NCBI RefSeq assembly: GCF_020099395.1
Contig: NZ_CP083590.1
Span: 4,278,001-4,342,000, forward strand
DNA length: 64,000 nt
Direction: 5' to 3'
Source of the DNA: Streptomyces mobaraensis
Lineage (GTDB): Bacteria; Actinomycetota; Actinomycetes; Streptomycetales; Streptomycetaceae
Made by a program: the position numbers and the translations under genes. Below the pieces are notes generated by a model. It saw only the letters and a list, made by a program, of their open reading frames with translations, was not told the origin of the DNA and ran no database searches. Shown piece after piece: positions 40,812 to 52,539 of this stretch (positions are counted from its first letter, which is position 1; every line of letters starts with the position of its first letter).

Positions 40812-43286
40812 GTGGCAGGCCAGTTGGAGCAGCTCACACAGCACGACCCGAGACGGATCGGCCCGTTCGAGGTGCTCGGCCGGCTCGGCGCCGGCGGCAT
40901 GGGACTGGTCTATCTCGCCCGCTCGGCGTCGGGCCGACGGGTCGCGATCAAGACGGTCCGTACGGAACTGGCCGAGGACCAGCTCTTCCGCGTCCGCTTC
41001 ACCCGTGAGGTGGAAGCGGCCCGGGCGGTCAGCGGCTTCTACACGGCCGCCGTCGTGGACGCCGACCCGCGGGCCGCCGTGCCCTGGCTGGCCACCGCGT
41101 ACGTCCCCGCGCCCTCCCTCGAAGAGATCATCAACGAGTGCGGGCCGCTCCCGGCCCAGGCGGTGCGCTGGCTGGCGGCCGGCATCGCCGAGGCGCTCCA
41201 GTCGATCCACGGCGCCGGGCTCGTCCACCGCGACCTCAAGCCGTCGAACGTGCTGGTGGTCGAGGACGGGCCGCGCGTCATCGACTTCGGCATCGCCTCC
41301 GGCGTCTCCAACACCCGGCTGACCATGACCAACGTGGCCGTCGGCACGCCCGCGTACATGTCCCCCGAGCAGGCCAGGGACTCCCGCAGCGTCACCGGCG
41401 CCAGCGACGTCTTCTCGCTCGGCTCCACCCTCGTCTTCGCCGCCACCGGCCACGCGCCCTTCCACGGCGCCAACCCGGTCGAGACGGTCTTCATGCTGCT
41501 GCGCGAGGGCCCGGACCTCTCCGGCCTGCCCGACGAGCTGCGCCCGCTCATCGACTCCTGCATGCAGATGGCGGCCGAGCACCGGCCCAGCCCGGCCGAC
41601 CTCCAGGCCCAGCTCGGCCCGCACCTCTTCGCGTCCGGCGGGGGCGACGACAGCGGCACGGCGTCCGCCTGGCTGCCGCCCGACGCCGTCTCGCTCATCG
41701 AGCGGCGCCGGGCCGGGCAGCGGCCCGCCGCGGCCCCCGCGCGGGGCCGCTCCGGCCGTTCCGCCGTCCCGCCGCCCCCGGCGCGGCCCCCGGCCGAGCC
41801 CCCGTACGACCCCTCCCGCGCCGCCCAGCCGCCGAGCTGGAGCGACGCCCGGGCGACGGGCCCGCACCACGGCCGGCCCGCGGGCGCGCCCGACCCGCGC
41901 GGCGCGTCGGCCGTGGCCTCCGCCCCCGTGTCCGCGCCCCTCCCGGCCCCGGCGCAGGGCCGGCACGCCGCCGCGCCCGCGCCCGCCTACGCCGACGACG
42001 GCTCGGTACGGCTCTCCGGCGCGCAGCTGCCGATCGGCCCCGGCCCGCGCGTCGCCGACGCCCGCGAGCCGTACGCGCCCTCGGCCGCCGGCACCGCCAC
42101 CGGCTGGGTCCGCCCGCCCGGCGGCACCGCGGCCCCCGCGGCGGCCGACCCGGTCCCCAACGCGACGGTGGACCCGGCCCGTTGGCGGCCGTGGCGGTTC
42201 CGGATGTCCAACGACGTCTGGGGCACGCCCGTCGTCGCCGGCGACCTGGTGTACGTCACCTCCTTCGAGGTGCACGCGCTCGATGTGGCCAGCGGGCGGC
42301 GGCAGTTCAAGACGCGCGACGTCGCCTGGGCGATGGCCGTCGCCGACGGCCGCATACACGCCTCCGACGGCCCGACGCTCTACGCCCTCGACGCCGCCGA
42401 CGGCGGCGAGCGCTGGCGGCTGTCCACCGACGGCTGGGTGTACTCGCTCGGCGTCGACCGCGGCACGGTCGTCACCGGCACCCGCGGCGGCGGCGCCCAG
42501 GCGTGGGAGGCGGCCACCGGCGAACTCCTCTGGGAGACCTCCGGCCTCCAGACCGACTTCGAGACCCCCGACTGCGGCCCGGTCGTCCAGGACGGCACGG
42601 TCTTCCTCTGGTCCGACGCCCGCCTGCGCGCCCTCGACGCCCGCTCCGGCACCGAGCGCTGGAGCTACCCCGTCGGCGACACCGGCTCCTGCGGCGGCGT
42701 CCCCGTCCGGCTGCACGCCGCCCCCGACGGCGTCGTCTACGTCGCCGCCGGCACCCGCCTGCTCGCCATCGACACCGCCCGCGGCGACGTCCGCTGGCGC
42801 TTCGAGGCCCCCGCGGTCTTCCTCAGCCCGCCCGCCGTCGGCAACGGCGGCGTCTACGCGGCCGACTACCTCGGCACCGTCTACGCCCTCGACGCCGCCG
42901 GCGGCCAGGAACGCTGGCGCATCGCCACCGAGGCCCGCCAGTCCAGCGAGCCCGTCCTCGTCTCCAACGGCCTCGTCCACCTCGGCAGCGGCGGGGCCCT
43001 CTACACCCTCGACGCCGTCACCGGCACCCCCCGCTGGCGCTTCGCCGCCGGCGGCGACATCGTCGGCTCCCCCGTCGTGGCCGACGGCCGCGTCCACTTC
43101 GGCTCCGCCGACCACTGCCTCTACGCCCTCGACGCCACCGGCGGCCAACTCCGCTGGAAGCTCGCCACGGGAGGAGAGATCACGGGCACCCCCCTGGCCT
43201 CGGGCGGCGTGGTCTACGCCTGCAGCAAGGACCGCTGCGTCTACGCCCTGGACGCGGCGAAGGGGACGGGGCAGGCGCGGCGGTAA
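40812..43286 (+). CDS. Ser/Thr protein kinase with C-terminal PQQ-type beta-propeller
   Basis: This 824-residue kinase is complete in its catalytic motifs: [14 protein letters not shown]47 in [17 protein letters not shown] with D141, VIDFGIASG and [14 protein letters not shown] Pro/Ala/Arg-rich linker (about residues 295-455) joins it to a beta-propeller of repeated PQQ-like units, seen as [46 protein letters not shown] and [15 protein letters not shown], about eight blades. There is no membrane segment, so it is probably cytoplasmic, in the manner of AfsK-like kinases. The propeller may bind a ligand or protein. Start GTG 40812 is uncertain, since the Shine-Dalgarno lies almost against it. 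It is followed by a hairpin at 43307. Confidence 0.92.
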
Positions 43287-44218: not shown

Positions 44219-47200
44219 GTGGCAAAGGCCGGGCGCCCGCAGGAAGGTCCGAAGGGAAGGAGCGCGGAAGCCAACGAACTCGCCGCACTGCTGCGGAGCG
44301 TCACCGAGGGTATGACGGTACGTCAGCTGGCCGCCCGGTACGCGGCCGGCAAGACGGCCTGGAGCGAATACCGTTCCGGGGCACGGACGGTTCCGCTTCC
44401 GCTCCTGCGGAAGGTGCTCGACGACGTGGTGCCCGATGCCCGCGCGAAGGACCGCCTGTGGCGAAGAGCGCGAGCACTGCACGCGGCGGCCGTGAAAGGC
44501 GACAACGCGGTGACGGCGGCCGTGCCGTACGGTTCGTCGGCGAAGCCCGCGGCCGGCGGGACCGGGACCGGAAGCGGGACCGGTCGGGACGACGGACCCC
44601 TGCTGGCGGTACTCGGCCCGGTCCGGCACCGCCGGGGCGCCGAGTGGGCGCCCGTCGGCCCGCCGCAGCGGTGCGCCCTGCTGGCCGCGCTCCTCCTGCG
44701 CGAGGGACGCAGCGCCACCCCGGCGGAGCTCGTCGGTGATCTCTGGGGAGCACACGCTCCTCCGTCCGCCGTCGCGGCCCTCCGCACCCACGCATCGGGG
44801 CTGCGCAAGACACTGGGCGGCAGGTCGGTGCTGCTCAGCGACTCGGGCGGCTACTCGCTGCCCGTCCGGCGCGGGCTCGTCGACCTCCACCGCGCCGAGG
44901 AGGCGGCCGTCGCGGCCCAGCGCGCGTTTCACGCCGGAGTACCGGGCGAGGCGCGCGCACTGTTCGCCGACGCGCTGTCCTTATGGACCGGCGAGACGCT
45001 GGCGGGTGTGCCGGGACCGTACGCCGCGGCGCAGCGCGCACGGCTGGAGGAGTGGAGGCTCACCCTCCTGGAGTCCCGCCTGGAGCTGGACGTCGAGTCG
45101 GGCCAATGCGCCGACACCGTCTCCGAACTGACGCTCCTCGTGGCCGAGCACCCCTACCGCGAGCGGTTCCGCGAGCTCTTGATGCTCGCCCTCCATCGCA
45201 GCGGTCGCCGACGCGAAGCGCTGGCGGTCTTCACCGACGCCCGGCGCCTCCTCCTCGGGGAACTGGGCGTCGAACCAGGGCCGAGGCTGGCAGAGCTGCA
45301 TCGCCGCCTGCTCACCGCCGGTCCCCAGCAGGCCGGTGCCGGATCCAGGGGGTCCGTGGACGTCGTACCCATCGTGAAGCCGGAGCAACTCCCGGCGGTC
45401 ACCGCGCACTTCACCGGCCGGGAGTCGGTGGCGGCCGAGATCAGAGCACGTCTGACCACCGCGGACGGGCCCGGCTTGTGCGCCGTCTCCGGCGTGGGAG
45501 GCGTAGGGAAGACGGCCCTGGCGCTGTACGCCGCGCGGGGTGTACGCGAGTGCTTTCCCGACGGGCAGCTGCACGCCGACCTCCGCGGCGCCGGGAACGA
45601 GCCGGCGGATCCCCACACGGTGCTCGGGGCCTTCCTCCGCACCCTGGGGATGCCCGACGCGGCCGTCCCCGGCGGAACGGACGAGAGGGCGGCGCTCTAC
45701 CGGTCCCTGCTGGCCCGGCGCCGCGTCCTGGTCCTGCTCGACAACGCGCGGGACGCCGCCCAGGTACGGCCGCTGCTGCCGGGGGCCGAGAAGAGCGCGG
45801 TGCTCGTGACCAGCCGTGCCCGGCTCGTCGACCTGGAGGACGCGCACCTCGTCGACCTGGACCTCATGCCACATGACGAGGCGTTCGACCTCTTCGCGCG
45901 CATCGTCGGCGAGGAGCGGGCGGCGGCGGAGCGCGACGCCGCGCGAGAGGTGGTGGCGGCCTGCGGCCGGCTGCCGCTCGCCCTGCGCATCGCCGCCTCA
46001 CGGCTGGTGGCCCGTTCCTGCTGGGACATCGGCACCCTCGCCCGCCGCCTGCGCGACGAAAACCGCCGGCTGGACGAACTGCACGTGGGAAACCTGACGG
46101 TGACCGCGGCCTTCCGCATGGGATACGGCCACCTCGAACCGGCCCAGGCCCGTGCCTTCCGCCTCCTCGCCCTGGCCGAAGGACCGGACATCTCCCTCGA
46201 CGCGGCCGCGGCCCTACTGGGACTGCGGCCACACGGCGCGGAACGCGTACTGGAGTCCCTCGTGGACGCGTCCCTCCTGGTGTCCGTCACGACGGGCCGG
46301 TTCCACTTCCACGACCTGGTACGGCTGTACGCCCGGACCCGTGCCGAGCAGGACGAGACGGCCGCGGAGCGCACCGCGGCCCGCTCCCGCCTGCTGGACT
46401 TCTACCAGGGCATGGCCCTGCACGTGTACCTGCTGGGGCGGCCGGGCGACCGCCTGGCGGACCATGTCGCCCCGGCTCCGGTGCCCGACTCCGCGCCCGC
46501 CGACCTGACGGCCGCGGCCGAATGGCTCGTCACGGAGACGGACTGCATCCTGGCGTGCGTACGGTCGGTGGCCCGGGGATCCACTCTGCGAAGAGCGGCC
46601 GACCTGCTGTACACGGCTCGGGACATCTCCGGATCCGGGCCCGGGCAGCGTGCTTACCTGGAAGCGGCCATGGCGGTCCTCAAGGCCGCCCTGAAAGAGC
46701 AGGACGCTTTCGCCGAGGGGCGGGTGCGCCTGGCGCTGGCGCTCCATCTGTCCGTCGCGGGGGACCTTGTCGCGGCGGTGGAACACGCCGACCGGTACCT
46801 CGAATCGTCCCTCCCGCAGAACGACATGCTGACCCGGTCCCATGGGGCGAACGTGCGGGGCATCATCAGCAATTACCAAGGCGCCCTGGACGAATCCACG
46901 CGATGGTTCACGGCGGCCCTGAAGGCGTTCCGGGAGCAAGGGGACCGCCCCGGTGAGGCGAGCGCGCTCAACAATCTCGCGATGACGTATGCGAAAGGCG
47001 GAGACGACGCCCGCGCGCTGAATCTCGCCGAGCAAGCCCTGGCCATTCACAGCGAGCCGGGAAGCTCCTCGTGGCGCCGGGCGAACAGCCTTTACACGCG
47101 CGGCCGTGCCCTGGCGGGACTCGGCCGGTACCGGGCGGCGGCCCGGGACTTCACCCATGCTCTGGAGATATTCCGGGACTGCCGGCAAATACGCTGGCAG

Positions 47201-47470
47201 GCATGGGCCCACTGGCGGCTCGCCCAGGTCCACCTCGCCGACGGGTCGCCCGCTCAGGCCATGCGCCACGCCGAACCGGCGCTGTCTCTGGTGCGGTCCC
47301 TGGGTGCGGACCGCGTCGAAGGGGAACTGCTTTTCCTCCTGGCCGACGCCCTGGAACAGGTGGGGCACTTCGACCGGGCGCGTGCCTGCCGTACCGAGGC
47401 GGCATCGGTGACGAACCGGAAACTGCAGGGCTTGCACGATGCGATCGGGCGTCCAGGTACGGGGGAGTGA
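44219..47470 (+). CDS. AfsR-like SARP regulator: HTH - SARP/BTAD - NB-ARC - TPR
   Basis: This 1083-residue regulator has an extra N-terminal HTH-like domain (about residues 15-95; ANELAALLRSVTEGMTVRQL, then AARYAAGKTAWSEYRSG). The SARP DNA-binding domain follows (about 118-200; LLAVLGPVRHRRGAEWAPVG, ATPAELVGDLWG), then the BTAD helices (to about 360), an NB-ARC ATPase with Walker A GVGGVGKTALAL (K431) and DNARDAAQ/TSRARLVDL motifs, and C-terminal TPRs. AfsR-type proteins activate secondary metabolism and are regulated by Ser/Thr phosphorylation. Start GTG 44219 follows GGGAGG. It converges on the small DDH genes and a second AfsR-like gene. Confidence 0.9.
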   Translation: MAKAGRPQEGPKGRSAEANELAALLRSVTEGMTVRQLAARYAAGKTAWSEYRSGARTVPLPLLRKVLDDVVPDARAKDRLWRRARALHAAAVKGDNAVTAAVPYGSSAKPAAGGTGTGSGTGRDDGPLLAVLGPVRHRRGAEWAPVGPPQRCALLAALLLREGRSATPAELVGDLWGAHAPPSAVAALRTHASGLRKTLGGRSVLLSDSGGYSLPVRRGLVDLHRAEEAAVAAQRAFHAGVPGEARALFADALSLWTGETLAGVPGPYAAAQRARLEEWRLTLLESRLELDVESGQCADTVSELTLLVAEHPYRERFRELLMLALHRSGRRREALAVFTDARRLLLGELGVEPGPRLAELHRRLLTAGPQQAGAGSRGSVDVVPIVKPEQLPAVTAHFTGRESVAAEIRARLTTADGPGLCAVSGVGGVGKTALALYAARGVRECFPDGQLHADLRGAGNEPADPHTVLGAFLRTLGMPDAAVPGGTDERAALYRSLLARRRVLVLLDNARDAAQVRPLLPGAEKSAVLVTSRARLVDLEDAHLVDLDLMPHDEAFDLFARIVGEERAAAERDAAREVVAACGRLPLALRIAASRLVARSCWDIGTLARRLRDENRRLDELHVGNLTVTAAFRMGYGHLEPAQARAFRLLALAEGPDISLDAAAALLGLRPHGAERVLESLVDASLLVSVTTGRFHFHDLVRLYARTRAEQDETAAERTAARSRLLDFYQGMALHVYLLGRPGDRLADHVAPAPVPDSAPADLTAAAEWLVTETDCILACVRSVARGSTLRRAADLLYTARDISGSGPGQRAYLEAAMAVLKAALKEQDAFAEGRVRLALALHLSVAGDLVAAVEHADRYLESSLPQNDMLTRSHGANVRGIISNYQGALDESTRWFTAALKAFREQGDRPGEASALNNLAMTYAKGGDDARALNLAEQALAIHSEPGSSSWRRANSLYTRGRALAGLGRYRAAARDFTHALEIFRDCRQIRWQAWAHWRLAQVHLADGSPAQAMRHAEPALSLVRSLGADRVEGELLFLLADALEQVGHFDRARACRTEAASVTNRKLQGLHDAIGRPGTGE

Positions 47471-47691: not shown

Positions 47692-48042
47692 TCAGCTCTT
47701 GTGGCCGCCGGCCGGGGTGACGGTGCCGTGGTCGTCGACGGGCGGGACGGTGCCGTGGTCGTCGACGGGGGCCACCGTGCCGTGGTCATCCACCGGGGCG
47801 ACGGTGCCGTGGTCGTCGACGGGCGGGACGGTGCCGTGGTCGTCGACGGGCGGGACGGTGCCGTGGTCGTCGACGGGGGCCACCGTGCCGTGGTCATCCA
47901 CCGGGGCGGCCGAGGCGATGCGGACGTCGCGGCCGGTGTGGTCGCTCGCGAGAGCCGAACCGGCGCCGAGGGCGGCGGTCGCGCCGACGATCCCGAGGAC
48001 GATGAACGCTTTCTTCGTGCGGCCGAGTTTGTTGTGCGACAT
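47692..48042 (-). CDS. Small secreted protein with seven VDDHGTV repeats
   Basis: This 116-residue protein has a Sec-type signal peptide (KKAFIVLGIVGATAALG, cleavage likely after ALA in GSALAS) and a mature part made almost entirely of seven tandem nonapeptides, APVDDHGTV or PPVDDHGTV (residues 46-108), ending TPAGGHKS. The Asp-Asp-His units suggest metal binding, by inference. It recalls AfsS, the small protein beside afsR, whose repeats contain DNH, but AfsS is not secreted. Start ATG 48042 has AAGGGAT upstream. Its signal peptide resembles that of the 65-residue product at 48721-48918. Confidence 0.8.
   Translation of the reverse strand: MSHNKLGRTKKAFIVLGIVGATAALGAGSALASDHTGRDVRIASAAPVDDHGTVAPVDDHGTVPPVDDHGTVPPVDDHGTVAPVDDHGTVAPVDDHGTVPPVDDHGTVTPAGGHKS
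47719..47907 (-). repeat. Seven 27-bp in-frame tandem repeats
   Basis: The coding repeat is an exact array of 27-bp units without length changes. Two variants alternate (GTCGTCGAC or GTCATCCAC at the unit end on the plus strand), and the block containing GTCATCCACCGGGGCG recurs 108 bp apart. This indicates a four-unit duplication. Confidence 0.9.
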
Positions 48043-48720
48043 GGGTATCCCTTGAGAAGCGTGTGACTGCGGTGTTCTCAGATGCACCTGATGCGTTCGA
48101 ACTTGGCAGAGACGCAGAGGGAAAGCCAGCGGTCACGGCTCAACTCCCGGCCTGAGGACGGTTGTTGTTGGTAACAGGCGGCACCGGAACGGCGATCGCG
48201 GAGGCGCCGGGCCGTAGGGAAGGTGGCGCGCATTGGCCCACTGGCCGCGCCTCGGCCTTCGGCTTACGAGGGGGCCGTTGTCAGTGGTTTCCATGAGAAT
48301 GGAGGCACTGGTCAGCAGGAACGGACCGGTCTCCCTGCCGTCAACGCTCCCGCCTGCCGTCAACAGGCGCGTTCGGCATGGGCGGCCACCGGCGCGACGA
48401 CGTCGTGCCGGGTCCGGCGGCTTCGGCGAATCGGGGGTGGCGATGCGGAGTGGCGGAGTGCGGTCTGGTGGGCCGGAGGGCCGGGTGCGGCCGGGGGTCG
48501 GTGGGGATGATCACCACGCGGGCCTCGGGCCGGCAGCGCGGGCCGGATGGTGTGTGGCGTAAGCGGGAGCGGCCACCGTGCTCCCTGACACCCGGGAGCG
48601 GCGTCCGTATCGGACTGCCGGGTGACGACGCATGACGCGGAGGCCGTGGCATGGCCAGGGGCTCCCTCGGCCGTTGCGCCGGGGGAGCTCCTTGTCGTGG
48701 GCCGAAGGCCCGTCAGACGC
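48043..48720. other. Intergenic region between the small DDH genes
   Basis: I see no supportable gene in these 678 bp. A small hairpin GGGCC-GAA-GGCCC (48699-48711) just past the stop of the 65-residue gene may terminate it. The promoter for the repeat-protein gene should lie at about 48060-48200 on the minus strand but I cannot place it. Confidence 0.5.
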
Positions 48721-48918
48721 CTATGACACGTGGTGGTCGTCCGCGCCGGTGGTGTGGTCGGCGGCGCCGCCGAGCGGCGACGCGGCGGCGCTCTGCAAGG
48801 TCGGCGTGCTGCCGGCGTGCAGGTCGGCGGCGGCGGGCGTGATCGCGAGGACCGTGGCCGCCCCGGCGATCGCAAGGGCTACCAGCGTCTTCTTGGCGCG
48901 GTCGGTGGTCGGGCCCAT
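48721..48918 (-). CDS. Small secreted protein, DDH family
   Basis: This 65-residue protein has a signal peptide (AKKTLVALAIAGAATVLAIT, likely cleaved after AAA) and a short mature part with AGSTPTLQSAAAS and the C-terminus ADHTTGADDHHVS. The signal and the ADDHH end relate it to the repeat protein at 47692 and to the 55-residue product at 49206. Start ATG 48918 has GAGGAG 6 nt upstream. It lies in the same direction as, and downstream of, the AfsR-like gene at 49609-52539. Function unknown. Confidence 0.72.
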   Translation of the reverse strand: MGPTTDRAKKTLVALAIAGAATVLAITPAAADLHAGSTPTLQSAAASPLGGAADHTTGADDHHVS

Positions 48919-49146
48919 GGGGACTCCTCTTGCTCGGGATACGGAGGTGGGTTGTCGGTGCATCCCGCGGTACGGCCGTGTCTGGACGCGCCGAAATCCC
49001 GGCCTCGTCCCGGCCGCCCGTAGGCATGGACAGGGCCGGCATCGGCGGCTCCCCCTCCCCGCCGCCGCTGCCGGCCCCGAGCTGTCGAACATTCGGCGAA
49101 GCCCCCTGTTCCCCCGCGCCTTGGGGTTCCGCCGGGATCGGTGGAC

Positions 49147-49171
49147 GGGGTCCTGACGTGTCAGGAACCCC
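49147..49171 (-). terminator. Hairpin terminator after the 55-residue gene
   Basis: GGGG-T-CCTGAC (49147-49157) and GTCAGG-AA-CCCC (49160-49171) form a stem with a 2-nt loop and a small internal bulge, 35 nt past the stop codon in the minus direction. Confidence 0.65.
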
Positions 49172-49205
49172 CGCCCACCTGCGAACCGATCAGCCGGTCC
49201 GATGC

Positions 49206-49373
49206 TCAGACCGGCTCGGAGCCCGCGTGATGGTCGTCAGGGCTCGTGGGTGTGTCCCCGAGCTTCTTGACCTTGGGCTTGGTCGGCGCGGTGGCGACGC
49301 CGGGTACGGCGCTCACCACCGAACCGTCCTGGGAAATGGGCGGAATGGGATCGAGCTTGTTCTCTTCGCTCAT
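49206..49373 (-). CDS. Small 55-residue DDHH protein, AfsS-like candidate
   Basis: This gene is shorter than usual gene-finding limits. It encodes 55 residues beginning MSEENKLDPIPPISQDGS, with a Lys/Pro middle (TKPKVKKLGD) and the end TPTSPDDHHAGSEPV. There is no signal peptide or membrane segment, so it is cytoplasmic, unlike its two neighbours. Start ATG 49373 has GAGGTG 7 nt upstream. It is the first gene downstream of the AfsR-like regulator, 235 bp away and in the same direction, the position afsS occupies beside afsR. Size and Asp/His/Pro composition also recall AfsS. The relation is inference. Confidence 0.7.
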   Translation of the reverse strand: MSEENKLDPIPPISQDGSVVSAVPGVATAPTKPKVKKLGDTPTSPDDHHAGSEPV

Positions 49374-49534
49374 GGTCGTTCACCTCTGTGGGACGGTGCG
49401 AGTCGTGCGATACGACGGGGTGGAGAAACCCGTCCGGCGATTCCCCCGAGGACCGCCGGACGGGCACACCGGGATCGGGCACCCCGGTGGGCGATGCATC
49501 ACCGCGACCCGCCTGCCCCCCGACGCGACGGATC

Positions 49535-49577
49535 GATAACCATGAGAGTGACACCTGGCGATAAACGATCGATGAAC
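49535..49577 (-). promoter_or_regulatory. Candidate SARP operator (heptamer direct repeats)
   Basis: On the minus strand GTTCATC (49577-49571) is followed after a 4-nt spacer by GTTTATC (49566-49560), an 11-bp period; GGTTATC (49541-49535) follows 18 nt later. SARP proteins such as AfsR bind direct heptamer repeats of this period near the -35. It lies between the AfsR-like gene stop (49609) and the 55-residue gene, about 160 nt before its start. Confidence 0.45.
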
Positions 49578-49608
49578 GTGCACATGACGCCTTTGCGCGT
49601 ACCCCGGG

Positions 49609-52539
49609 TCAGGTGTGCGCCATCTCCAGCAGCCGGCGTACCTCCGCCGCCTCCCCTTCGTTGCCCAACTGCTCGAACGTCCGTAGGGCCTCCGCCCAGC
49701 AGGCCCGCGCGCGACCGCGCTGACCAAGACGGTCGAGGCAGTGGCCGAGCACGGTGAGGATGCCTCCCCGGCGCCACTCGCCGCCGATGCCGCGCAACCG
49801 GACGAGGGCCTGTTCGGCGTGGGCGGCGCCGCGAGCGTGGTCGCCCAGGGTGTGGAATGCCTCCGCCATCCGCGCGAGGCTCCATCCCTCCCACATCCGC
49901 TGCCGGTTCTGCCGGAAGATAGACAACGCCTCGACGAACTGGGCCAAAGCGTCCTCGTGCCGCTGCGCGGCGCGGAGTGCCATGCCGTAGGCGTAGTGGC
50001 CGTTGGCAAGCCGCCAGGAAACCTGCAGTTCACGGTAGATGGCCAGGCTCTGTTCCGCGAGGCGGACCGCGGTCTCCGACCGTCCGGTCTCGCCGTGGAC
50101 GCGTGAGAGGTTGCTGAGCGCGCTGACCTCACCAGGACGGTTGCCGTCCGCACGGAACGAGGCCAGTGCCTGCTCGCAGTACGTCTCCGCGTCCCCATAG
50201 CGCTGCTGGTAAATAGCGACGATGGCGCGGATGTTCGCCGCGATGCACCGCGGAAGGATGTCACCGCTTTCCCGCGCCAGCCGAAGCGCCTCAGCGGCTT
50301 GTTGGTCCGCCTGGGAGAACCGGCCGGAGAGGCTGTGGACGTTGGCGAGCACGGTCCGGGCCCGCCCCTCCGCCCGGGAGTCCCCGACCCTCCGCGCCGC
50401 GGCCAGCATGTCGTCCGCCGCGTTCGCGTACAGGCGGGAGTACGCGCCGGACTCCGTGAGGTCGTTCGTCGCGAGCAGCAGATCGACGGCCTTGCGCAGG
50501 GGCTCGCCGGTGTCCTGGGCGTGCTGCCGGACGCACGCCAGCATGCAGGGCGCCTCCGCGTAGAGCCAGTCCGCGCCGGCGGCCCGGTCCGTGAACGTTA
50601 ATCCCTGGTGGGTGGTCGGCGTGATGTTCTTCAGCAGCTGGTCCCCCGGCCGCTCCAGCACGTACACCCCCGCCGCCGTCGACAGGTAGAAGTCCAGCAG
50701 GCGCGACATCGCCGCCTCCCGTTCCGCCGGGGGCTGTTCGTCGCGTTCGGCGCAGGAGCGGGCGTAGAGGCGGAGGAGGTCGTGGAAGCGGTAGCGGCCG
50801 GGGGCGGCGGATTCGAGGAGGGAGGCGTCGACGAGGGTTTCCAGGAGTTCTTCCGTGGTGTCGACGTCGAGGTCGAGGACGGCCGCGGCGGCCGGGAGGG
50901 AGATGTCCGGGCCGTCGGGGAGGCCGAGCAGGCGGAAGGCGCGGGCCTGGGCCGGTTCGAGCTGGCCGTAGCCGAGTTCGAAGGTGGCCTTGACGGCGAG
51001 GTCGCCGGCGCGGAGTTCGTCGAGGCGGCGGCGTTCGTCGCCGAGCTTGCGGGCGAGGACGGAGACCGTCCAGGTGCGGCGGGCGGCGAGGCGGGACGCC
51101 GCGATGCGGATGGCGAGCGGCAGGAAGCCGCAGGCGGCGACGGTGTCCATGGCCGCGTCGCGCTCGGCGGCGACGCGTTCGGTGCCGACGATGCGGGTGA
51201 AGAGGACGAGGGCCTCCTCGGGGCTCATCACGTCCAGGTCCACCAGGTGGGCGCCGGCCAGGTCGACCATGCGGGTGCGGCTGGTGACGAGGGCCGCGCA
51301 GCCCTCCGTGCCCGGGAGCAGCGGGCGGACCTGGGCGGCGTCGCGCGCGTTGTCGAGGAGGGCGAGGACGCGGCGGCCGTCGAGGGTGGAGCGGAAGAGG
51401 GCGGAGCGTTCCTGGAGGCCCTCGGGTATCGCAGAGTCGGCGACGCCGAGGGCGCGCAGGAACGCGCCGAGGACGGCCTCGGGTTCGGCGACGACGGGCC
51501 CGGTGCCCTGGAGGTCGACGTAGAGCTGGCCGTCGGGGAAGTGCTCGCGGGCGGCGTGCGCGACGTGCACGGCGAGCGTCGTCTTGCCGACGCCCCCGAT
51601 GCCCGCCACCGCGGACACCGCCATCACCCGGCCCTCGGCGGTCGCCAGTTGGTGGCTGAGCTCCTGGACGAACGCGTCCCGGCCGGTGAAGTCGGGGACG
51701 GTGGCCGGGAGCTGGGCGGGGCGGACGAAGGACAGGCCACTGCCGGCGCGGTCGCCGGAGGGGTGGGGGGCGAGGTCGGCGTCGCCGCGCAGGATGCGCT
51801 GCTGGAGCTCGGAGAGCTCGGCGCACGGCTCGACGCCCAGTTCGTCGTCGAGCAGCCGCCGGGTGTCGGTGTACACGGCCAGCGCCTCGGCCTGCCGGCC
51901 GCTGCGGTACAGGGCCAGCATCAGCAGTTCGCGCAGCCGCTCGCGCAGCGGGTGCGCGGCGGTCAGCGCGGTGAGCTCCGAGACCGCCTCCGCGTGGTGG
52001 CCGAGCTCCAGGTCCAGGTCGAGCCGGGTCTCCACCAGGCCGAGCCGCCACTCCTCCAGGCGGGCGCGCTGGGTGTCGGCGTACGGGCCGGGGACGTGCG
52101 CGAGCGGCTCGCCGTCCCAGACGGCCAGCGCCTCCGTGATGAGCGCCCTGGCCCGGGTGCCGTTGCCCGCGGCGCGGGCCTTCTCCGCCTCGGCGGCGAG
52201 GCGTTCCGCGGTGTCGATGTCCAGGCAGCCGACGCCGGCCCGCAGCGCGTACCCGCCCGCCTCGCTGGCCAGCACGTCCGCGTCCGGCCCGAACGCCTTG
52301 CGGAGCCGGGACGCGTAGGTGCGCAGCGCGGCGAGTGCCGCGTGCGGGGGGTCGTCGCCCCACAGCGCGTCCACGAGCTCCGCCGCCGTGGCCGTCCGGC
52401 CACCGCGCAGCAGCAGCGCGGCGAGCAGGGCCCGTTGCTGGGGCGAACCGGTCCGCAGTTCCTCGCCGCCGCGCCAGGCGCGGACGGGCCCGAGCACGGC
52501 GAAGCGCAGTCGCTGTCCGTGCCCTGTGTCGCCGGCCAT
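49609..52539 (-). CDS. AfsR-like SARP regulator: SARP/BTAD - NB-ARC - TPR
   Basis: This 976-residue AfsR-type activator starts with the OmpR-like SARP DNA-binding domain (LRFAVLGPVRAWRGGEELRT, ATAAELVDALWGDDPPHAAL) and the BTAD helices (ERLRELLMLALYRSGRQAEA and VYTDTRRLLDDELGVEP). The NB-ARC follows with Walker A GIGGVGKTTLAVHV (K319), LALLDNARDAAQVRPLLPG and TSRTRMVDLAG; the C-terminus is TPR-rich (about residues 640-976). It lacks the extra N-terminal HTH of its convergent relative at 44219. Start ATG 52539 follows AGGGGG. Likely regulated by kinase phosphorylation, as AfsR is by AfsK; three kinase-like genes lie at 31502-43286. Confidence 0.92.
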   Translation of the reverse strand: MAGDTGHGQRLRFAVLGPVRAWRGGEELRTGSPQQRALLAALLLRGGRTATAAELVDALWGDDPPHAALAALRTYASRLRKAFGPDADVLASEAGGYALRAGVGCLDIDTAERLAAEAEKARAAGNGTRARALITEALAVWDGEPLAHVPGPYADTQRARLEEWRLGLVETRLDLDLELGHHAEAVSELTALTAAHPLRERLRELLMLALYRSGRQAEALAVYTDTRRLLDDELGVEPCAELSELQQRILRGDADLAPHPSGDRAGSGLSFVRPAQLPATVPDFTGRDAFVQELSHQLATAEGRVMAVSAVAGIGGVGKTTLAVHVAHAAREHFPDGQLYVDLQGTGPVVAEPEAVLGAFLRALGVADSAIPEGLQERSALFRSTLDGRRVLALLDNARDAAQVRPLLPGTEGCAALVTSRTRMVDLAGAHLVDLDVMSPEEALVLFTRIVGTERVAAERDAAMDTVAACGFLPLAIRIAASRLAARRTWTVSVLARKLGDERRRLDELRAGDLAVKATFELGYGQLEPAQARAFRLLGLPDGPDISLPAAAAVLDLDVDTTEELLETLVDASLLESAAPGRYRFHDLLRLYARSCAERDEQPPAEREAAMSRLLDFYLSTAAGVYVLERPGDQLLKNITPTTHQGLTFTDRAAGADWLYAEAPCMLACVRQHAQDTGEPLRKAVDLLLATNDLTESGAYSRLYANAADDMLAAARRVGDSRAEGRARTVLANVHSLSGRFSQADQQAAEALRLARESGDILPRCIAANIRAIVAIYQQRYGDAETYCEQALASFRADGNRPGEVSALSNLSRVHGETGRSETAVRLAEQSLAIYRELQVSWRLANGHYAYGMALRAAQRHEDALAQFVEALSIFRQNRQRMWEGWSLARMAEAFHTLGDHARGAAHAEQALVRLRGIGGEWRRGGILTVLGHCLDRLGQRGRARACWAEALRTFEQLGNEGEAAEVRRLLEMAHT

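Follow-up and report, generated by a model that had tools for sequence, protein, structure and literature searches.

The window considered here is a stretch of 64,000 nucleotides from Streptomyces mobaraensis (NCBI RefSeq assembly GCF_020099395.1, contig NZ_CP083590.1, positions 4,278,001 to 4,342,000 of the forward strand), and it contains an afsK-afsS-afsR locus. The assignment is made because AfsR and AfsK both exceed the cut-offs of curated NCBIfam models. The 976-residue product of the reverse-strand gene at 49609–52539 scores 1618.8 bits against the equivalog NF053617 (AfsR; cut-off 1430) and carries the Pfam domains Trans_reg_C and BTAD (the SARP part), NB-ARC (the NOD) and TPR. The 824-residue Ser/Thr kinase encoded at 40812–43286 on the forward strand, with a PQQ-type propeller (Pkinase, PQQ_2), scores 1507.6 bits against NF053615 (AfsK; cut-off 1300). 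An initial annotation, made from the DNA letters alone, had described an AfsR-like gene, three small genes downstream of it and a convergent second AfsR-like gene; all five open reading frames were located in the window at the coordinates reported here, and “AfsR-like” proved right as to family but too weak, since the protein is AfsR itself. By AfsR, relatives of the source genome include S. huiliensis (97% identity) and, at 79–89%, further strains such as S. abikoensis, S. netropsis and S. cinnamoneus.

The first small gene after afsR, on the same strand (49206–49373), encodes a 55-residue cytoplasmic protein whose C-terminal end is TPTSPDDHHAGSEPV and which holds a single motif, DHHAG (codons 49235–49221). 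It lies behind a 22-bp afs-box-like site at 49556–49577 on the reverse strand, made up of two 11-bp repeats, GTTCATCGATC and GTTTATCGCCA, and followed on that strand by a −10-like CACTCT (49550–49545); the afs box is likewise described as two 11-bp direct repeats in the excerpts of PMC10936776. Because of this position and this upstream site, the gene is taken to be afsS, and the AfsR/AfsS-type module suspected in the initial annotation holds. Further along the same strand lie genes for two secreted proteins with predicted signal peptides. The first, P65 (48721–48918; 65 residues, signal peptide to about Ala31), has a mature part that starts with DLHAG and finishes with DDHHVS, the protein ending in ADDHHVS. 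The second, P116 (47692–48042; 116 residues, signal peptide to about Ala32), contains seven VDDHGTV units (47901–47719). All three small genes possess an ATG start and a ribosome-binding site rich in purines. Other Streptomyces repeat the arrangement in which AfsR is followed by a small cytoplasmic and then a small secreted protein; homologues thus occur near SARP genes there, and one genome (G051) has all three small proteins with the same kind of motif. What is new here is, judging from the sequences compared, a polymorphic motif common to AfsS and its secreted partner and matched by coevolution to the sensor domain of AfsR.

Comparisons were made over a set of 198 loci, covering up to 10 kb downstream of AfsR, from 117 genomes of the genus, the window and 80 named loci, some of them from the same species. 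AfsS was chosen by a composition score, with 11 cases set by hand (one of these, G012, is cut short where the frame runs on). By this means an AfsS open reading frame was called in 189 of the 190 Streptomyces loci having at least 700 nt after afsR; in G027 it is uncalled, although the AfsS model matches at that place. With one mismatch allowed, the motif occurs in two or more copies in 183 of the 189 and in a single copy in the window and five others. There are 87 different AfsS pentapeptides, mostly D-x-H-x-x (for example, DNHMP, DIHAT, NTHIT and DNHAS, but also DSNRP, DNGMP, DHYAS and DNYGT), as picked by a rule that favors His at position 3 and Asp, Glu or Asn at position 1 (G090 was picked by hand). 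The curated AfsS model, NF053616 (60 bits), gives no match to the window protein and none in its own genome at E ≤ 10; it matches 35 of 121 Streptomyces genomes at E ≤ 0.01, and 18 exceed its cut-off. The hypervariability of the motif would apparently explain why so few matches accompany a near-universal gene. When the 55-residue protein itself was searched in the 121 genomes, G051 alone, besides the window, was convincing (E-value 1.8e-6), and other matches (E 0.01–1) were taken as chance by their appearance; L208, L209, L210 and G051 count as relatives. The GTTCA..GTTTA core of the afs box was seen in 13 of 15 upstream stretches of 130 nt each, the other two (G018 and G060), whose spacers are longer, showing none. 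Elsewhere in the family, in 15 of 15 loci from other genera (L361 and L363–L376), AfsR is followed by a small gene whose motif is of a different kind (DNWHNDS, DNFHNDS, DNQYQD, DNIYTEG and NWQPT), and within 1.5 kb no secreted partner passing the filters used was seen in these loci.

The variation in the motif follows that of one part of AfsR. AfsR was available at 171 of the 198 loci, extracted from 164 and used from 161, two of which are at least 99% identical to another. Across these 161 genomes, AfsS-motif distance correlates with TPR amino-acid distance at r = 0.71 and with SARP+NOD distance at 0.20; the partial Mantel value for motif and TPR is 0.707, against a mean of 0.00 and a maximum of 0.107 in 2,000 permutations. 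The correlation is again 0.71 when near-identical AfsR proteins are removed (n = 159). As controls, AfsK distance gives 0.00 given SARP+NOD (n = 47 genomes), the AfsR arm part (residues 601–690) gives 0.25, and AfsS residues 2–9 give 0.13, the motif still reaching 0.70 given those residues. When AfsS is scanned offset by offset, the correlation is highest at motif positions 3–5 (0.41, 0.38 and 0.44), lower (0.17–0.21) at positions 1 and 2 and at the pair of residues that follow the motif, and between −0.10 and 0.13 at other offsets. Residues 691–976 of AfsR, encoded at 49612–50469 on the reverse strand, make up the TPR sensor part, which in the proposed cassette would be the receptor half that varies.

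Within this part, particular residues go with particular motif positions; in the numbering of the window AfsR they include 692, 741, 770, 776, 777, 785, 843 and 886. At position 5, a residue other than Pro is accompanied by Tyr or Phe at 777 in 117 of 118 cases, and Tyr777 with Pro never occurs (0/43). Thr at position 5 goes with M886 (89/92), Ser with V886 (15/16) and Gly with W886 (5/9). Asp or Glu at position 1 is found with R843 (126/126) and Asn with K843 (25/35), while His at position 3 accompanies E785 (136/146) and its replacements K785 (11/15). Asn at position 2 pairs with Asp or Asn at 770 (46/48) and with Lys or Arg at 692 (47/48), Met with A770 and L692 (12/12 each), and Gly with E770 (8/8). 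The window AfsR has N692, I770, Y777, E785, R843 and W886, and at position 5 both the AfsS motif, DHHAG, and the first unit of P65, DLHAG, conform to the Gly type.

Because TPR and afsS are exchangeable as a block, co-changes were counted on a tree of the TPR part itself, from which 40 candidate columns had been left out, and compared with a null in which branches are drawn according to their activity. Five pairs stand out: position 2 with 770 (16 co-changes against 5.0 expected) and position 4 with 776 (17 against 5.8), both reached in 0 of 2,000 family-wise draws; position 5 with 886 (7 against 0.9; 1/2,000); position 1 with 795 (5 against 0.6; 3/2,000); and position 3 with 809, which lies outside the removed columns (4 against 0.4; 10/2,000). 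A simpler count of Pro changes at position 5, made on the SARP+NOD tree, gave 15, with 13 of them shared with residue 777; it was set aside as inflated by cassette exchange, which is why the activity-weighted test was used.

A short protein with a predicted signal peptide, here called the secreted partner or SecP, lies behind afsS in 58 of the 198 loci (31/118 and 27/80). Signal peptides were recognized by simple rules on the strand of afsS, except at G021, where the protein was found by its motif; a SecP-like frame with a stop in G091 was left uncounted. Signal-peptide-like frames were judged not to be SecP when they lay in another frame, belonged to the family of another gene or had low third-position G+C (G116, G082, G092, two in L239, G019, G022, G097, G108, G118, L230, L261, L265 and L287). 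A consensus of 19 SecPs reads MTRTKKxLxxxAxAxAxAxxAAxPAxAD-x-H, and their related signal peptide suggests old descent. The gap between afsS and secP is mostly 90–380 nt, and both genes are often repetitive. In 25 of 55 SecPs, the protein ends two residues past the third position of the motif. P65 matches the 19-protein profile at E 2.8e-15, the profile including P65 itself. When the 121 genomes were searched with this profile, which contains many of the proteins it matches, 24 hits reached E ≤ 3e-7, and 21 of these lie at the afsR locus; the other three are in G097, G081 and G016; on reading, the G016 match and a weaker one in G114 are unlike SecP. The proteins in G097 (L401, 5595–5771, reverse strand; units DQHVS, DSRIT, ENHAT and DAHVT, similar to D-x-H-x-x) and G081 (L402, 7658–7828, reverse strand; units ENHSS, DNHQT, ERHQT, DRNQD and ENHGS) are of the SecP kind, and a motif search of the fetched stretches found no AfsR-like gene near them. 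Also on the strand of afsS, some loci have a small membrane protein (MLRNVLG.. or MIRNVLG..) further downstream, as in L223, where it comes after secP, and in G116 and G082. The initial annotation had allowed for a distinct small-protein system; the secreted proteins are better described as recurrent companions within the AfsR/AfsS locus.

SecP and AfsS of the same genome have motifs that closely resemble each other. The comparison used 51 SecPs, i.e., the 58 without seven close relatives of other rows (G055, L208, L214, L217, L224, L235 and L253), with mature parts cut by rule and two by hand. The best pentapeptide score between AfsS and mature SecP averages 26.24 for own pairs and 19.54 ± 0.52 for permuted ones, a difference of 13 standard deviations, and the maximum of 20,000 permutations was 21.73. 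With one genome per AfsR cluster, z is about 10 (35 clusters), about 7 (16 clusters, 80%) and 4.6 (8 clusters), the last being reached by 3 of 50,000 permutations. The class of position 5, Pro or not, is the same in AfsS and SecP in 49 of 51 genomes (G109 classed by hand). Moreover, the SecP motif itself correlates with TPR at 0.37 given SARP+NOD (0/2,000 permutations). Unusual forms are matched as well, as in DHYAS/DHYSS and ERHQT/ERHQS, and the match is kept where the histidine is gone (DSNRP/DNNRP, DNGMP/DNSMP and DNYGT/DNWGT), the SecP motifs without His being DNNRP in G048 and G036, DNSMP in G109 and DNWGT in G120.

The unit that varies appears to move as a whole. Among genomes with SARP+NOD at least 95% identical, TPR identity has a median of 94.7% when the motif is the same (26 pairs, minimum 82.4) and 65.8% when it differs (53 pairs, maximum 94.0), the two ranges overlapping somewhat. 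The window and G051, for example, are 98% identical in SARP, 99% in NOD and 98% in AfsK, and 66% in TPR. In a sliding DNA comparison, three sibling pairs (L267/L260, L281/L267 and L249/L233) are over 90% identical through most of afsR and fall to about 60–78%, lower at gaps, from the TPR-coding end through afsS. All three regain at least 91% past this valley, but L249/L233, both of which have SecP, do so late, after about 1.1 kb. In two of the three, gaps cause a further dip upstream of afsR, and these pairs thus differ outside the valley as well. A fourth pair, L211/L212, is 80–86% identical over the TPR part and informs on the upstream side only, as the L212 contig ends there. We conclude that the TPR-coding DNA and afsS are exchanged together.

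These observations make it probable that the TPR domain of AfsR recognizes the motif of AfsS and SecP, and that a single polymorphic ligand–receptor cassette is made up of the TPR-coding DNA, afsS and, in loci that have it, secP. Direct recognition of the motif by the TPR domain is likely, and a step of cell–cell signaling through SecP is plausible; direct binding, its sign, and the secretion, processing and re-import of the peptide are all steps that we infer from sequence. AfsR, a STAND ATPase restrained by its NOD-TPR part, would bind the afs box and switch on afsS, as published for S. coelicolor. The AfsS motif, usually D-x-H-x-x, would then bind the TPR domain and feed back on AfsR. SecP could be exported by way of its predicted signal peptide, cut to motif-sized peptides, re-imported by a peptide permease and read in the same putative TPR groove, making antibiotic production responsive to kin. 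An AlphaFold2 model of AfsR residues 600–976 has the TPR fold (pLDDT 94.4) and resembles, among other TPR proteins, the peptide receptors Rap, NprR, PlcR and AimR.

Several points weigh against recognition of the motif by AfsR, or against parts of that reading. The model is matched equally well or better by TPR proteins unrelated to pheromones (TSK/BRU1, APPBP2 and APC/C), and when the TPR part was modeled tethered to AfsS, with 28 of 33 in-frame loci, the latter was left unplaced (pLDDT 25–38). Most loci are without a detected SecP, and the AfsS–TPR covariation does not depend on it, being equally strong in loci where no SecP was detected (0.76, n = 112); at G021 and L251, moreover, AfsS and SecP differ in their position-5 Pro class. 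The excerpts of PMC8290100 have AfsS as the final activator, with constitutive afsS alone driving actinorhodin production. Since published genetics place AfsS there, AfsS would need another output or would have to act through other TPR regulators. P116 also misfits the AfsR of its own genome, as its unit DDHGT has Thr at position 5, which goes with M886, and the window has W886. Its counterparts in G051 (96 residues) and L209 (101 residues) are second secreted proteins of the DDHxT type that likewise stand beside a W886 AfsR. P116 may serve for signaling to others, or it may be a relic. Finally, part of the motif–TPR correlation is shared genealogy, a point that bears most on the first of the alternatives.

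According to that alternative, nothing but linkage is at work: the end of afsR that encodes the TPR part would recombine together with afsS as one block, and the two would correlate without any contact between their products. Sibling strains do differ across the whole TPR-afsS block, and over the 131 closest pairs motif distance is correlated with synonymous distance in the TPR part as well (0.63). Several of the tabulated pairs fade on the TPR tree, where residue 777 gives 4 co-changes against 1.4 expected, 843 and 785 are outside the seven best residues for positions 1 and 3, and Pro changes at position 5 drop from 15 on the SARP+NOD tree to 5; the associations of 777, 843 and 785 may therefore be largely clade history. 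A synonymous-site control (r = 0.18 against 0.71) was downgraded from decisive proof of selection, as it is weakened by the saturation of TPR synonymous distances when cassettes are exchanged. Against linkage, AfsS residues 2–9, which are nearer to afsR, barely correlate, and most motif flanks show no correlation; co-change between certain motif positions and individual TPR residues is seen even on the TPR tree; and the presence of the same motif in SecP is left unexplained. We regard it as unlikely.

A second alternative is that the motif is read by a third fast-evolving partner (e.g., a protease, an exporter or another regulator), and that it is to this partner, not to the motif, that the TPR domain adapts. 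The place of AfsS downstream of AfsR in the genetics excerpted from PMC8290100 would suit such an arrangement, but the position-by-position pairing would be hard to obtain through an intermediary, which makes this reading quite improbable. Third, AfsS and SecP might have become alike, with no shared function, because the neighboring genes have repeatedly converted each other or arose by a recent duplication. The two genes are indeed adjacent and often repetitive; nevertheless, the related SecP signal peptide suggests old descent, in the examples seen the two match in the short motif alone, and the SecP motif also tracks the TPR-coding part, so this explanation seems very unlikely. Lastly, the secreted D-x-H proteins could be metal binders, a function to which the initial annotation had pointed for the repeat: in 40 of 55 SecPs, [DENQS]-x-H directly follows the A-x-A-like cleavage site, and the mature N-terminus would be NH2-x-x-H, which we take to be an ATCUN-type Cu/Ni motif, but as a function common to these proteins metal binding is unlikely, and as an account of the motif it is highly improbable, because histidine is replaced in 15 of 161 AfsS motifs and lost together in AfsS and SecP in several lineages (DNNRP, DNSMP and DNWGT) while their match persists, and because AfsS has no signal peptide. 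An ATCUN-like mature N-terminus is possible in a subset of SecPs.

To return to the window, the second AfsR-like gene (44219–47470, forward strand, its frame open from 44039) is convergent with afsR and sits between the small genes and afsK. It scores 1130.4 bits against NF053617, below the cut-off, and its TPR part is 37% identical to that of AfsR; it is a paralogue, and its membership in the cassette is only putative. As a candidate receptor for P116, it differs at the tracked sites from the residues of the DDHxT type. When the stretches fetched after afsR, some of them short, were searched by motif, 4 of the 198 loci (G000, G047, G050 and G105) proved to hold an AfsR-like gene. Around second AfsR-like genes elsewhere, 12 of 14 regions were readable, and inspection by eye, with the filters used, found no AfsS- or SecP-like small gene downstream in any of them.

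Compared with the AfsK-AfsR-AfsS system of S. coelicolor, the locus shares the AfsR and AfsK families by their curated cut-offs, the position of afsS and the afs-box-like site. S. coelicolor AfsS is a protein of 63 residues with three 12-residue repeats according to the excerpts of PMC2267785, whereas the window AfsS has one copy of its motif, and the window adds two secreted partners and a second AfsR-like gene. The proposed reading also recalls other known systems. RNPP receptors (Rap-Phr, NprR-NprX, PlcR-PapR and AimR-arbitrium) are of the HTH-TPR or Rap type and have no STAND ATPase domain; their peptides derive from precursors that are secreted, and after re-import they bind in the TPR groove, whereas for SecP a signal peptide is predicted and uptake and binding are putative. 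AfsR shares their TPR fold, which alone shows no function, and differs in being a SARP regulator with a STAND ATPase (NB-ARC), in having the motif also in a cytoplasmic protein and in belonging to Actinobacteria; it may work like these receptors, yet is not a member of the group, given its NB-ARC domain. Pherotype cassettes are known from comQXP and agr, and as in these, the signal and sensor domain diverge together between better-conserved flanks; the sensor here is an intracellular STAND regulator, and no modifying enzyme was noticed, none having been searched for. In MalT-type STAND regulators, the inducer of MalT is a sugar, whereas a peptide is proposed for AfsR. AfsS as a TPR ligand, polymorphism of its motif and SecP are absent from the excerpts of PMC2267785, PMC10936776 and PMC8290100, and a word search of open-access literature gave, among the matches listed, no title or start of an abstract dealing with a peptide ligand for AfsR, with polymorphism of AfsS or with a secreted partner of AfsS.

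It is conceivable, although on balance rather doubtful, that AfsR and AfsS make up a pherotype system across the whole genus. The pentapeptide would then be the inducer of the AfsR STAND sensor, with AfsS as its intracellular and SecP as its exported carrier; antibiotic production would be gated by kin recognition, TPR-afsS-secP cassettes would be swapped whole between strains, and misfit extra secreted proteins, such as P116, would act on other pherotypes. The excerpts of PMC10936776 describe AfsR as a STAND regulator inhibited by NOD-TPR and call the inducer of its sensor domain unknown, and those of PMC2267785 likewise leave open how AfsS works, both proteins being controllers of antibiotic production. 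If the AfsS motif is the ligand of AfsR, the question can be put as a binding assay in which the residues and peptides are already specified, and one could try synthetic peptides for eliciting silent antibiotic clusters in a strain-specific way. Streptomyces would also have peptide-based cell–cell signaling through a STAND regulator if the ligand–receptor cassette is polymorphic and includes a secreted copy of the ligand.

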